Shown here: positions 1,642 through 5,671 of the stretch, piece by piece
Position numbering within the stretch: the stretch's first letter is position 1
How the letters are laid out: the number at the start of each line of letters is the position of its first letter
Source: B21-G16 sp003644825 [NCBI: Candidatus Zhuqueibacterota bacterium]
GTDB taxonomy: Bacteria > SM23-31 > B21-G16
Length of the DNA: 7,190 bases
Assembly (NCBI GenBank): GCA_003644825.1
Contig: QNDJ01000070.1
Span: 1-7,190, forward strand
Direction: 5' to 3'
Program-made: the position numbers and the translations under genes
Notes under the pieces: model-generated
Told to the model about the DNA's origin: nothing
Databases searched by the model: none
Seen by the model: only the letters and a program-made list of their open reading frames with translations

Positions 1642-2388
1642 ATGAAAAGTTTAATTATGATAGTAATGTGTCTTTTTATGTGCATTGCAATTGTTGCCTG
1701 TTCAAAAAATAAAGGACAGAAAGAATTGCTGAACAAATTGACAGAAGAAGAAAAAACCGAAGGCTGGGTTCTTCTTTTTGATGGAAAGACAACTAAAGGA
1801 TGGAGAGGATACAATAAAGAAACATTTCCACAAGTTGGTTGGGAAATAGTGGACGGAACACTACATTGCATTGCATCAGGTCGAGGAGAGGCTGGACATG
1901 GTGGTGACATTATAACAGAAAAGACTTATAAGAACTTCATTCTGAAATTAGAATGGAAAATAGCACCAGGAGGTAATAGCGGCATATTTTACAGAGCAGT
2001 AGAAAAACCAGGACGACCTATATGGCAGATGGCACCTGAAATGCAGGTCCTGGATAATGAAAGACATCCTGATGCAAAATTAGGAAAAAATGGTAACAGA
2101 CAGGCTGGTGCTCTTTATGACCTGATACCTGCCAACCCTCAAACAACAAAACCCGCAGGCGAATGGAATAAAGTAAAAATTTATGTAAATGAAGACCATG
2201 TTGAACACTGGCTGAACGGAAAAAAAGTTCTTGAATATAACCTATGGACACCTCAATGGAAAGAAATGGTTAAAAACAGCAAATTTGCAAAATATCCTGA
2301 TTTTGGTGAATACAAAGAAGGACATATAGGTTTGCAGGACCACGGTGATGATGTGTGGTACAGAAATATCAAGATAAAAGAGCTGTGA
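1642..2388 (+). CDS. DUF1080 lipoprotein (3-keto-disaccharide hydrolase-like)
   Basis: This 248-residue lipoprotein has a hydrophobic signal peptide (about residues 4-19) ending in the lipobox I17-V-A-C20. Ser21 after the Cys gives no inner-membrane retention signal, so outer-membrane anchoring is likely if E. coli sorting rules apply. The rest is one DUF1080 (PF06439) jelly-roll domain: LFDGKTTKGW (45-54), GGDIITEKTYKNF (87-99), GGNSGIFYR (110-118), EMQVLDN (133-139) and the C-terminal HIGLQDHGDDVWYRNIKI (228-245). All are family hallmarks and the length is typical. Characterised members cleave glycosides whose sugar has first been oxidised at C3 by a Gfo/Idh/MocA enzyme. The preceding gene is exactly such an enzyme, which supports the same role here. 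An alternative is glycan binding through the concanavalin-like fold. The actual substrate is unknown. Confidence 0.9.
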   Translation: MKSLIMIVMCLFMCIAIVACSKNKGQKELLNKLTEEEKTEGWVLLFDGKTTKGWRGYNKETFPQVGWEIVDGTLHCIASGRGEAGHGGDIITEKTYKNFILKLEWKIAPGGNSGIFYRAVEKPGRPIWQMAPEMQVLDNERHPDAKLGKNGNRQAGALYDLIPANPQTTKPAGEWNKVKIYVNEDHVEHWLNGKKVLEYNLWTPQWKEMVKNSKFAKYPDFGEYKEGHIGLQDHGDDVWYRNIKIKEL

Positions 2389-2457
2389 AAATCGACAAAA
2401 AACAGAAAGATTAATAGATAAAAAATATATTAATGAATTTTATAAGTATTGTTTATT

Positions 2458-2480
2458 ATAAATAAAAAAACTTTATTTAT
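2458..2480. terminator. Weak AT-only hairpin downstream of the DUF1080 gene
   Basis: ATAAATAAA (2458-2466) pairs perfectly with TTTATTTAT (2472-2480) across a 5-base loop, 70 bases after the DUF1080 stop. It has no G-C pair and no T-tract after it, so it may be chance structure in AT-rich DNA. It is the only terminator candidate close behind this gene. Confidence 0.2.
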
Positions 2481-2717
2481 TGGAAGACGAAAACTCCACT
2501 ACAAGAAGGTATGATATAATCAAACAAAATTAAATATTAAGCACTGGTATATACTCCGTTTAATAAATTAAAACTCATAATAAACTTTAATCTATTTAAA
2601 AACAGTTACCTTTAAAAATCACTACGGGTACTTATACAGATATAAATGAAATAATTTAATCCTGATGTGTGCACACAAATTCTATAAATTGAAACCTTAA
2701 CCTTATATTTCAAGCTT

Positions 2718-2752
2718 TTACAGTTAAAGCAATATTTTTAATCTAACTGTAA
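2718..2752. repeat. Perfect 9-bp inverted repeat with 17-base loop
   Basis: TTACAGTTA (2718-2726) is matched by TAACTGTAA (2744-2752) across 17 bases. Arms and spacing would suit either a hairpin in RNA or a two-half-site protein-binding sequence. No gene starts nearby, so a function is not apparent. Confidence 0.45.
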
Positions 2753-2820
2753 TTATATTGTTAATAATTTAACCACATAGTTTGCAAAAAATGCTCCGGG
2801 TTAGTTGAAACCAAAAAGTT

Positions 2821-3023
2821 CCTTAAAAATATTTCTTACATAATACAAGATGTAACCGGAATTGCTCACAAACAGGACATCAAGCATCTTGCTTGTCACC
2901 AAAAACAGTAGGTCAAGCATCTTGCTTGACACCAAAAACAGTAGGTCAAGCATCTTGCTTGACACCAAAAACAGTAAGTCAAGCATCCTGCTTGACAAGA
3001 AAACAAAAAAATAGAACTTTTTT
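2821..3023. repeat. Composite repeat element, copy 1 (5' flank, four 33-bp units, A/T-tract tail)
   Basis: The element starts around CCTTAAAAAT (2821), runs through an AT-rich flank ending in CAG (2873-2875), then four tandem units, and ends with A7 (3005-3011) and T6 (3018-3023) separated by TAGAAC. The same three-part arrangement recurs at 3563-3738. The last 32 bases of the two 5' flanks (2844-2875 and 3589-3620) align without gaps at 24 of 32 positions, so the two are copies of one element and not merely two arrays. Outer limits are approximate. Confidence 0.75.
2879..2996. repeat. Tandem array of four 33-bp hairpin units
   Basis: Units begin at 2879, 2912, 2945 and 2978, an exact 33-base period. 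Each holds arms GTCAAGCA and TGCTTGAC around a 3-base loop; units two and three (2912-2930, 2945-2963) are perfect 8-bp hairpins with loop TCT. The first unit is degenerate, with only the inner 6 bp paired (2881-2886 with 2890-2895). The last has loop TCC. Linkers are near-identical (ACACCAAAAACAGTAG), so this is a tandem repeat and not a CRISPR array with unique spacers. Confidence 0.9.
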
Positions 3024-3087
3024 CACAGCTTAAGAATACCTGCTCCAGCAAATTCTGTTAATTAATTAATATGGTTATTTCTTAAAA

Positions 3088-3164
3088 GCCCTGTTAGGAG
3101 CGAAATGCTTGTAGAAAAAATAGGAAATAACAGTAGAACTCCGATAGAAGCGGTATAAAAATAT
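3088..3164 (+). repeat. Two decayed units of a roughly 49-bp interspersed repeat, + orientation
   Basis: Unit one (3088-3120) reads GCCCTGTTAGGAGCGAAAT then GCTTGTAGAAAA; unit two (3136-3164) reads GAACTCCGATAGAAGCGG then TATAAAAATAT. Starts are 48 bases apart. Both follow the pattern of a short CTCC/GGAG-like stem, GCG, then an AT-rich segment. The pattern resembles intergenic palindromic repeats I recall from Bacteroidota and related genomes (CTCCGTAGGAG followed by TTTGTAGA), but that comparison is from memory. The stems here are imperfect, which indicates decay. Confidence 0.55.
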
Positions 3165-3188
3165 CAATTTAATTATGGACCAGGGTAG

Positions 3189-3207
3189 CTCAAGCTTCCA
3201 GCTTGAG
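3189..3207. repeat. Lone hairpin with the geometry of the 33-bp unit hairpin
   Basis: CTCAAGCT (3189-3196) pairs perfectly with AGCTTGAG (3200-3207) around loop TCC. It keeps the 8-3-8 layout and the inner TCAAGC/GCTTGA of the array hairpins. The outermost and innermost base pairs are both changed on both sides so that pairing is retained. It stands alone, with no neighbouring 33-bp units. Confidence 0.7.
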
Positions 3208-3313
3208 ATTTAGTTCTTTTAAAAACAGTCATTTTAATTACTTCTAAAAATTATTACCATCACCAATTTGTCTATAAATATAATAACTATTTATAAACTG
3301 GCAAGGATATCCC

Positions 3314-3443
3314 ATTCTACAAATGTAATAAAACTGAGAATTGTATACTGTTCATCCCTGCCTGTACTATTACATATAACACCTATGGAGTTCGATATAT
3401 TTTTTATCTCTTATTCTACAATTATGTCACTTCTATCGTAGCT
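3314..3443 (-). repeat. Three decayed units of the roughly 49-bp repeat, - orientation
   Basis: Read on the minus strand, three related units start near 3443, 3394 and 3340. The first contains CTACGATAGAAGTGACAT then AATTGTAGAAT; the second GAACTCCATAGGTGTTATAT; the third TTACATTTGTAGAAT. The spacing of about 49-54 bases and the shared TTGTAGAAT ending match the + oriented units at 3088-3164. The second unit's CTCC/GGTG region still forms a partial stem. Confidence 0.5.
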
Positions 3444-3623
3444 TTTAAATAAGGCATAATGTATAATTGCGAGTATAAGGGCAAAAGCGAATAAAAAATT
3501 TTTAACATAACTATAATCATACATTAATAAGAATCCCTTACCATTTACAGAGATTATAAAAACCCTAAAAATATATCTTTTCATATATTACAAAACATAA
3601 CCAGAATTAATAAAAAACAGTAG

Positions 3624-3708
3624 GTCAAGCATCTTGCTTGACATCATAAACAGTAGGTTAAGCATCTTGCTTGACACCAAAAACAGTAGGTCAAGCATCC
3701 TGCTTGGT
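3624..3708. repeat. Tandem array of three 33-bp hairpin units
   Basis: Units start at 3624, 3657 and 3690, again exactly 33 bases apart. The first is a perfect 8-3-8 hairpin (3624-3642). The second has one C-to-T change that leaves a G-T wobble in the stem (3657-3675). The third has loop TCC and a right arm ending GGT instead of GAC, leaving 6 bp plus two wobbles. As in the other array, the TCC loop occurs only in the last unit. Confidence 0.9.
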
Positions 3709-3738
3709 AAAAAAAACCAATAAAATTGGAGTTTTTTT
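3709..3738 (+). terminator. Terminator-like hairpin ahead of the kinase promoter
   Basis: CCAAT (3717-3721) pairs with ATTGG (3725-3729) around AAA. Eight A residues precede it and T7 (3732-3738) follows after AG. The A- and T-tracts could extend the stem, so termination in either direction is possible. It would shield the downstream promoter from upstream transcripts. The G-C content of the stem is low, so strength is uncertain. Confidence 0.4.
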
Positions 3739-3750
3739 GTAAAATATTCC

Positions 3751-3778
3751 TTGACAATATTATATTTTAGGCTATTTT
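3751..3778 (+). promoter_or_regulatory. Sigma-70-like promoter for the kinase-sulfatase transcript
   Basis: A perfect TTGACA (3751-3756) is followed after 16 bases by TATTTT (3773-3778), a four-of-six match to the -10 consensus. Transcription would begin near 3785, giving a short leader of about 36 bases before the start codon. The -10 box is not strong and the region is AT-rich, so this is a prediction. Confidence 0.5.
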
Positions 3779-3806
3779 TAATAAAAAGAAAAAAAAATTT
3801 AATTAC

Positions 3807-3811
3807 GGAGG
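3807..3811 (+). promoter_or_regulatory. Shine-Dalgarno site for the acetate kinase-PduL gene
   Basis: GGAGG sits nine bases before the ATG at 3821. It is the best ribosome-binding site in the window and supports this start, which also lets the kinase signature begin at residue 4 as in other acetate kinases. Confidence 0.8.
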
Positions 3812-3820
3812 ATTAAAAGT

Positions 3821-5671
3821 ATGAACGTACTTATCCTTAACGGGGGAAGTTCAAGCCTCAAATATTACCTTTTTGATATGAACACGGACACAACTGTGCT
3901 TGAAGGAATGATAAGTAATATAGCGTTGGATGAATGCAATCATAGATATACTGACAGAAAAGGTAAAACAGTTATGGAAGAAGTTAATATAACTGATTAT
4001 GAGCAGGCTTTAAAGCTTGCTTTTGATACAATTCATAAGAAATGCAATATATCCAGTGAGGGACTAAAAATTGTTGGACATAGAGTTGTTCATGGTGGGA
4101 ACAGGTTTCAAAGTCCAATAATAATTGACAAAAATGTCGAAGAAATTATTGAAAGGTACTCTCATCTCGCTCCTTTACATAATCCAATCAACCTAAAAAT
4201 AATCAGATTAGCAAGAAAGTTTTTACCGAATGCTACACATGTTGCTGTATTTGACACAGCTTTTCACAATACAATTCCTGATTATGCATCTGTTTATGGT
4301 ATTCCTTATGAGTACTATAAGAACGACCAGATTCGCAGATACGGTTTTCACGGCAACTCCCATGAATATGTTGCAATCAGGGCATCTCAATTTCTGGAGC
4401 GACCTTTAAGGAGGCTAAAAATTATCACTTGCCACCTTGGAAATGGAGCGAGTGTTTGTGCAATAGATAGAGGAAGATCAATCGATACAAGTATGGGACT
4501 AACACCACTGGAAGGACTTGTAATGGGAACAAGATGCGGAGACATTGACCCGGCTCTGGTTACATACCTTGCCAGAGAAAAAAATCTCTCTCTTGATGAA
4601 ATTGATAATATGTTAAACAAAAAATCTGGACTATTAGGCCTATCTGGAATAAGCAGCAATATGCAACTTATAGAAAAAGCAGCTGAAGAAGGAGACCATC
4701 AGGCGCTTTTAGCTATAAAACTTTTTTGTTACAGGGTAAAAAAATACATTGGAGCATATATGCTTGCTCTGGGCTGGGTAAATGCAATTGTATTTACCGG
4801 TGGAATCGGAGAAAATAGTAGAGGTATTAGGCTAAGGATTCTCCAGAATACTGAAAAGTTCGGAATCGGTATCAGCGAGCAAAAAAATCGCCTTTGCAGG
4901 GTAGATAGGGCTCATCCTGTATTTGACATTAGTCATCGTTCATCTCACGCTCATGTTCTTGTAATTGCAACAAATGAAGAGCTTATGATGGCAAGAAAGT
5001 GTCTTGAAGCAATTGATTATGATATTAGACCTCATATAGCTACAGCTGAAGCTGTTCGACAGATTCCAATAGGAATATCTGCCCATCATGTTCATCTCTG
5101 CAGGTCAGATATAGATGCCCTTTTCGGTGAAGGTTATCAATTAACACCTGAAAAGCCTCTGTCACAACCCGGTCAGTATGCCTGCAAAGAAAAAGTTGAC
5201 CTTAAAGGACCAAGAGGAACTGTGAAGAATGTTCGTATTCTTGGACCTGAACGCAACCAGACACAGGTCGAAATTTCCAGAACAGAAGAATTTATTCTCG
5301 GTATTGATGCCCCTATAAGGGAATCCGGAGACCTTGATGGAACACCATCAATAACAATTATTGGTCCCAAGGGGCCTGTAGAAATTGCCCAGGGTGTAAT
5401 ATGTGCAAAAAGACACATCCATATGACACCTGAAGATGCTGAATTGTTTGATGTATCAAATGGTGATATTGTTATGGTTAAGGTTTCCAGCAAAGGAAGA
5501 GAACTTATTTTTGGTGATGTTGTTGTTCGAGTAAATGAAAACTACTCTCTTGAGATGCATATTGATACTGATGAAGCTAATGCTGCAGAACTATCGGCAA
5601 ATGCTACTGGAATACTTATATCTATACAGCATAAAAAAGAGGTTCAACCCTGGTTAGCTTATGCTCCATAA
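3821..5671 (+). CDS. Acetate kinase fused to PduL-type phosphate acyltransferase
   Basis: This 616-residue cytoplasmic protein joins two enzymes that usually have separate genes. Residues 1-397 are acetate kinase: LILNGGSSSLK (4-14), GHRVVHGG (86-93), FDTAFH (144-149, Asp145 matching the catalytic Asp), RRYGFHGNSH (172-181), CHLGNGAS (204-211), MGTRCGDIDP (235-244), FTGGIGEN (325-332) and ATNEE (383-387). After a short linker, residues about 416-602 are a complete PduL domain: ISAHHVHL (419-426), PLSQPGQYACKEKVDLKGPRG (446-466), the TQVEIS strand (481-486), AKRHIHMTPEDAELF (529-543) and EMHIDTDEANAA (578-589). The His-x-His pairs at 423/425 and 532/534 plus His580 match the metal-binding histidines. 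Together they would convert acetyl-CoA and phosphate to acetyl phosphate, then acetate and ATP; propionyl substrates are possible. There is no encapsulation peptide or microcompartment gene here. Asn179 replaces the usual Thr in GFHGTSH. The frame is continuous with no sign of a frameshift. A sulfatase gene follows 40 bases on. Confidence 0.93.
   Translation: MNVLILNGGSSSLKYYLFDMNTDTTVLEGMISNIALDECNHRYTDRKGKTVMEEVNITDYEQALKLAFDTIHKKCNISSEGLKIVGHRVVHGGNRFQSPIIIDKNVEEIIERYSHLAPLHNPINLKIIRLARKFLPNATHVAVFDTAFHNTIPDYASVYGIPYEYYKNDQIRRYGFHGNSHEYVAIRASQFLERPLRRLKIITCHLGNGASVCAIDRGRSIDTSMGLTPLEGLVMGTRCGDIDPALVTYLAREKNLSLDEIDNMLNKKSGLLGLSGISSNMQLIEKAAEEGDHQALLAIKLFCYRVKKYIGAYMLALGWVNAIVFTGGIGENSRGIRLRILQNTEKFGIGISEQKNRLCRVDRAHPVFDISHRSSHAHVLVIATNEELMMARKCLEAIDYDIRPHIATAEAVRQIPIGISAHHVHLCRSDIDALFGEGYQLTPEKPLSQPGQYACKEKVDLKGPRGTVKNVRILGPERNQTQVEISRTEEFILGIDAPIRESGDLDGTPSITIIGPKGPVEIAQGVICAKRHIHMTPEDAELFDVSNGDIVMVKVSSKGRELIFGDVVVRVNENYSLEMHIDTDEANAAELSANATGILISIQHKKEVQPWLAYAP

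Follow-up and report, generated by a model that had tools for sequence, protein, structure and literature searches.

Head-to-tail arrays of a small GTAG REP family with a recurring leader, located within a mosaic of repeats

The intergenic region between a 3-keto-disaccharide hydrolase gene (nucleotides 1642-2388) and an acetate kinase-PTAC fusion gene (3821-5671), both located on the + strand, includes two arrays of short hairpins. This locus raises the question of what kind of element these hairpins are, and of how they and the DNA around them could have been multiplied. The window, that is the whole stretch of DNA that was analysed, is the complete contig C70 (1-7190; 7,190 nucleotides) of a genome of 2.48 Mb that is 83.6% complete and consists of 493 contigs. 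The fusion gene joins acetate kinase and a PTAC phosphotransacylase in one ORF; in the four relatives of the same class that have a kinase match, the kinase part alone was matched (query 1-398 at most). An earlier note on this DNA had described two arrays of 33-bp units, four in one and three in the other, and a recount agrees with it: array 1 includes four palindromes starting at 2880 and array 2 three starting at 3625, with a period of 33 and all on the same strand. The features of the region are as follows.

2731-2767, + strand: stretch upstream of the leader, common to contig C78 and, weakly, to 3495-3530 (local alignment against shuffles)
2807-2877, + strand: leader of array 1 (flank alignment, leader profile)
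2879-2897, + strand: array 1 unit 1, palindrome without GTAG foot (18.6 bits, partial match)
2908-2930, + strand: array 1 unit 2, GTAG REP
2941-2963, + strand: array 1 unit 3, GTAG REP
2974-2996, + strand: array 1 unit 4, GTAA foot, loop C
2997-3023, + strand: tail 1 (A-tract/T-tract), without stable hairpin
3058-3222, + strand: copy of a dispersed composite repeat (matches on other contigs)
3185-3207, + strand: class A REP, GTAG plus CTCAAGCTTCCAGCTTGAG
3298-3320, - strand: degenerate REP of another type (beginning GTAGAATGGG), as on contig C84 (0 of 1000 shuffles)
3387-3452, no strand assigned: degenerate segment matching the GGAGCTC-type hairpin region of contig C121 (0 of 1000 shuffles)
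3552-3618, + strand: leader of array 2 (flank alignment, leader profile)
3620-3642, + strand: array 2 unit 1, GTAG REP
3653-3675, + strand: array 2 unit 2, GTAG REP
3686-3708, + strand: array 2 unit 3, GTAG REP, loop C, 3' end of the stem decayed
3709-3738, + strand: tail 2 (A-tract/T-tract), common to C78

A tagged unit consists of GTAG (once GTAA), a perfect or near-perfect 8-bp stem and a loop with the sequence TCT or TCC. The foot is GTAA in array 1 unit 4 and is lost in array 1 unit 1. Taken unit by unit, the variable loop base is T, T, T, C in array 1 and T, T, C in array 2, the last unit of each array having loop C. One 17-nt spacer is identical between the two arrays and their remaining spacers are 1 to 2 bases off it; a CRISPR array was rejected since the spacers are near-identical 17-nt repeats and not unique. 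BIMEs, in which REPs are found in alternating orientation, were rejected for the window arrays as well, all seven units being on the + strand with no alternation. An Rfam scan of the window gave no match at E <= 1, and a minus-strand ORF of 65 amino acids across array 1, which had no Pfam match, simply reads through the repeat.

These hairpins belong to the REP elements, a known kind of bacterial DNA repeat, among which they form a small new family. The GTAG super-family is described as having a palindrome of 20-40 bp with a stem of mostly 6-13 bp, a short loop, and GTAG at one end (PMC3733652), and the units of the window have a length of 23 nt, an 8-bp stem, a 3-nt loop, and the GTAG tag in five out of seven cases. 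When folded as single-stranded DNA two of the array units gave z values of -4.2 and -4.5, and REP hairpins folded as DNA ranged from -4.2 to -5.3. A pattern in which foot, outer stem, and loop were given, two mismatches were allowed, and the six inner stem bases were left free had 117 matches in 12 genomes, versus 11 for the reversed pattern. The inner stem bases are fully complementary in 36 of the 51 distinct 23-mers matched, which are not all independent because many come from one genome, and six inner stem types are found: GCA/TGC, GCT/AGC, CCG/CGG, GCG/CGC, CCA/TGG, and ACA/TGT. In an alignment of 14 REPs pairing is complete (112 of 112 cells), with a covariation score of 0.519 versus at most 0.081 for slid pairings; this score leans towards structure because its 14 rows were chosen as REPs. 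The stems covary and the foot and loop stay constant. When 150 of 696 candidates were scored in the genome of the window, a covariance model made from these 14 REPs, 10 of which come from this genome, identified at least 71 hairpins at E <= 0.01 and at least 89 at E <= 1; ten of the 71 are the model's own source sequences and the genome is incomplete. REPs are usually present in more than 100 copies per genome (PMC2817692), a number that is customary and not strictly defining; the family of the window arrays consists of 11 units at four loci, within the total of at least 71 GTAG-type hairpins. A search for the palindrome as an exact string in literature text found no match, which says little as sequences in figures are not searchable.

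The earlier note had also claimed that the two arrays share their 5' flanks, and this likeness survives comparison with shuffled controls: the local alignment of 2820-2878 with 3562-3618 scored 25, shuffles giving a mean of 10.3 (sd 1.7, maximum 17, 0 of 1000 as good), and the same score was reached by none of 2862 pairs of other stretches from the same intergenic region. When the borders were slightly shifted the score was 24 and the shuffle maximum 21, again with 0 of 1000. The similarity was said to continue further upstream, and so it does in a weaker form, with 3 of 1000 and 15 of 1000 shuffles as good in two tests of array 1 versus array 2; the stretch upstream of the leader gave 0 of 1000 when array 1 was compared to C78. 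Further copies exist in the genome, and thus neither of the two outcomes named as refuting in the earlier note occurred. The family is found on contig C78 as two units, both with loop T, and on contig C349 as two units, the second with loop C, in an array cut by the contig end; the spacers of C78 and C349 are 15 and 16 nt long. Leader similarity is strong between arrays 1 and 2 (0 of 1000 shuffles as good), fair between array 2 and C78 (3 of 1000), weak between array 1 and C349 (11), array 1 and C78 (24), and C78 and C349 (43), and absent between array 2 and C349 (442).

A genome-wide search with a profile of the copies, proposed in the earlier note, was carried out with an AT-rich leader profile built from the two window arrays, C78, and C349. 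These four match by construction because the profile was made from them, and one place was added, C376, whose contig ends directly after the leader; this leader is by eye nearly identical to that of C349 and therefore C376 counts as one more place and hardly as independent evidence. Below these five strong matches C111 followed at E 0.005, with noise from about 0.05, and C111 was rejected as a further array as no unit of the window array family could be seen by eye behind the leader match. The tails, described before as similar, match weakly between arrays 1 and 2 (13 of 1000 and 17 of 1000 shuffles in two tests); tail 2 matches the C78 tail (0 of 1000), and tail 1 does not (468 of 1000 shuffles as good). 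The match of array 1 to C78 runs on through the tail to 3173 with 71% identity. The arrangement of flank, array, and tail therefore stands at arrays 1 and 2 and C78, with tail 1 decayed, and at C349 and C376 the leader is present and the contigs end. As a block, leader, array, and tail are well supported for arrays 1, 2, and C78 and less so for C349; the larger block round the hairpins is real but rare.

Two explanations of this block that do not involve a transposase acting on the hairpins bear on these data. Plain segmental duplication, in which one stretch at the locus was doubled to generate arrays 1 and 2 with no mobile element, would agree with the two arrays being each other's best leader match and with their common period of 33, identical spacer, and loop-C ends. 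However, leader and array are also found on C78 and C349, tail 2 is closer to the C78 tail than to tail 1, and the DNA from one array to the next consists of other repeats. We consider this explanation improbable; duplication could account for the second copy at this locus, not for the whole family. The constant order of leader, array, and tail at arrays 1, 2, and C78 also recalls a MITE-like non-autonomous transposon, one that would end within leader and tail and be mobilised by a transposase without action on REP hairpins. Terminal inverted repeats are absent, in that no inverted-repeat pair links any leader with the corresponding tail, and conservation of tail 1 is poor, which leaves a MITE highly improbable.

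The DNA between the arrays includes a composite repeat (3058-3222) that carries the class A REP GTAGCTCAAGCTTCCAGCTTGAG, preceded by two further hairpin segments identified by eye at about 3087-3114 and 3135-3156. With 40 of 97 candidates scored, a query spanning 3040-3260 matched the genome at least 34 times, its own site being counted. Since the units are GTAG REPs and the stretch between the arrays consists of other dispersed repeats, the region is a GTAG-REP mosaic and not a new class of element. The composite repeat itself is about 300 bp long or more, has several hairpins in fixed order with the class A REP among them, and is commoner than the window arrays; 26 copies of the class A hairpin were aligned, and further copies of the composite are found for example at loci L030, L034, L047, and L048.

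The position of the arrays raises the alternative that they are a cis-regulatory array, the hairpins and tails being kept as terminators or as RNA 3'-end stabilisers between the hydrolase and AckA-PTAC genes. Nucleotides 2350-3850 include five terminator-like sites where 0.6 are expected, and both genes are transcribed from the + strand; yet four of the five sites are read from the minus strand and so point against both genes, and the only + strand site is the class A REP. Folding of the tails gave weak hairpins for tail 2 (z -0.86 for the + strand, -1.97 for the - strand) and C78 (z -1.89) and no structure for tail 1. Furthermore, the window array family is also present at unrelated loci, C78 and C349, and at E <= 1 REPs were absent from the stretches fetched around the AckA loci of four class relatives. 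The hairpins may serve the host as terminators, but such a role seems unlikely as the explanation of the arrays.

The exact pattern GTAGGTCAAGCATCYTGCTTGAC was found in eight stretches among 84,980 species genomes, a set in which the genome of the window is perhaps not included. The hosts are two Phycisphaerae MAGs, one Sedimentisphaerales, one Calditrichota (two stretches), one Marinimicrobia (two stretches), and one Ignavibacteria. Because seven of these eight outside stretches have a single unit, head-to-tail arrays of the exact 23-mer are known in the genome of the window only. Within its class, of which six genomes including this one were available (the family being represented by one genome), none of the five others has the 23-mer within three mismatches. 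With at most 150 candidates scored per genome, the REP model matched at least 0, 10, 1, 0, and 0 times in these class relatives (G001 to G005) and at least 67, 15, 4, 19, 93, and 38 times in G006 to G011. One of the relatives, G002, has on contig C182 (L082 / L139) 11 GTAG-CCGAGCCTG hairpins round a Y1 transposase match, all in one orientation and many of them 41 bp apart.

Y1 transposases were found in 9 of 11 genomes, namely the six with the exact pattern and the five class relatives; none was found in G001 and G011. The transposase family was also matched in 5 of 14 control genomes, so its presence alone is weak evidence. G003 to G005 have Y1 transposases together with 1, 0, and 0 REP matches. 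The Ignavibacteria MAG G011 has its 38 REP matches without a Y1 transposase, either as a REP family lacking its transposase or through a gap in the genome. The position of the hairpins at the transposase loci is stronger evidence than the presence of the transposase. Among 32 such loci (30 of 39 matches and the two of the window's own genome) perfect-stem GTAG hairpins are found in 11, 29 hairpins in total, where 50 rounds of shuffling gave 0.02 on average and never more than 1; 21 loci have none. When tetranucleotides were compared at the 32 loci GTAG came first of 256, and the next has 9.

At L140, in a Calditrichota MAG, the gene of a REP-associated tyrosine transposase (RAYT, also known as TnpAREP; 1223-1864) is flanked by close versions of the window palindrome. 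The upstream one (1107-1127) is GTCAAGCATCTTGCTTGAC, with GTCGG in place of GTAG, and the two downstream (1940-1961 and 2003-2024) are GTAG versions with a 4-nt loop. Each palindrome lies near an opposite-strand GTAG hairpin, GTAGGACAACCATCCTGGTTGTCC, in a BIME-like setting. The best NCBIfam match of the protein is the REP-associated tyrosine transposase, at 76.6 bits versus a cut-off of 80.

The genome of the window has two Y1 transposases, located on contigs C338 and C167. That of C338 (L008, 1-870) is IS200-like with no adjoining GTAG hairpin; by eye it has AGCTCC-type hairpins on both sides, and this type of hairpin also opens the composite repeat of the window. The one on C167 is the remnant of a RAYT: the contig start truncates it, its frame has one TAA stop, and sister REPs, GTAGGTCAACCGTCTCGGTTGAC, lie inside this frame. 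An intact cognate RAYT was not found in this incomplete genome. On C167 (L009, 1-4676) the remnant, with three REP-like palindromes, continues in frame into a stretch matching DUF1156, an anti-phage-associated protein (profile 490-907 of 960; 108.9 bits, far below the cut-off of 1000). A DUF499-like gene comes next (152.1 bits versus a cut-off of 1200), and the arrangement suggests that a RAYT has inserted into a defence gene.

We propose, with a probability of about 0.72, that the units are GTAG REPs seeded by a RAYT acting on single-stranded DNA, with later block-wise copying of an array, leader and tail included, and tandem amplification of its units. The RAYT would recognise the hairpin in a single DNA strand, make a cut next to it, and join it elsewhere, in this way seeding copies in this genome; a seeded array, together with leader and tail, would then have reached a few loci as one block, and tandem amplification would have altered its unit number. 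To the host the hairpins may be almost neutral, although they perhaps influence transcript ends to some degree. The movement of these copies by a RAYT, and the block and unit copying that followed, we infer from sequence comparison. The suggestion of the earlier note that the element is possibly mobile or duplicated thus gains indirect support as to mobility, because GTAG REPs, to which the units belong, are linked to RAYT transposases. The absence of a visible target-site duplication would fit IS200-type transposition. The exclusion of local slippage in the earlier note is not supported for the number of units: the shared spacer, the others being 1 to 2 bases off it, the loop-C last units, and the differing counts look like tandem amplification of an inherited array, and unit number therefore probably changes in this manner.

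In other species TnpAREP binds and cuts single-stranded REPs at CT, and in one case also at CA, and joins the strands, and the mode of REP spread is still called open in the same account (PMC8266576). Several observations weigh against the proposed origin: the few copies, the head-to-tail order, the only own RAYT found being a broken remnant, the other own transposase (C338) being IS200-like with no GTAG hairpin next to it, the REPs of G011 without a Y1 transposase, the Y1 transposases of G003 to G005 with few REPs, the 21 of 32 hairpin-free loci, and, at L140, the upstream palindrome without GTAG and the 4-nt downstream loops. CA occupies the two bases 5' of the foot in all six tagged array units, and as a suggestion only it may be a cut site. 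A doubtful extension of this is that the block of leader, REP array, and tail is the unit that the RAYT transposes, with cuts at the CA before the foot of the six tagged units. If so, one excision would free a whole number of 33-nt units, which would explain head-to-tail arrays of variable length, and leader and loop-C last unit would mark the ends.

The feature of the window is real and of a known kind: a small family of GTAG REPs that stand head to tail in arrays preceded by a recurring leader, the whole being embedded in a repeat mosaic. One REP palindrome links MAGs labelled Calditrichota, Marinimicrobia, Ignavibacteria, and Planctomycetes-type (Phycisphaerae, Sedimentisphaerales) and a small class represented by six available genomes, and the arrays with their recurring leader are material for the question of how REPs multiply, by single-strand transposition, tandem amplification, or both. 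As it is the case for BIMEs, several REPs are found close together in one intergenic region, and the L140 RAYT locus does alternate; the units of the window differ from BIMEs in having all one orientation. A closer likeness is that to the group 3 REPtron Sm of Stenotrophomonas maltophilia, in which REPSm has the format GTAG, 8-bp perfect palindrome, 3-nt loop, and 23 nt (PMC8266576). The foot, palindrome length, loop length, and total length are the same, the hairpin is one of single-stranded DNA, and a RAYT is flanked by such hairpins, here in other MAGs. In contrast, the loop is TCT or TCC in the window and GCT in Sm (PMC8266576), and the window has head-to-tail arrays with leader and tail, few copies, and no intact cognate RAYT found. 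A few REP families are described as regularly associated with similar DNA tracts, and units can be tandemly repeated together with flanking DNA (PMC3733652). The window arrays resemble these REP clusters in combining tandem units with flanking DNA; the tracts of that description are palindromes round the REPs, whereas those of the window are an AT-rich leader and an A/T-tract tail.
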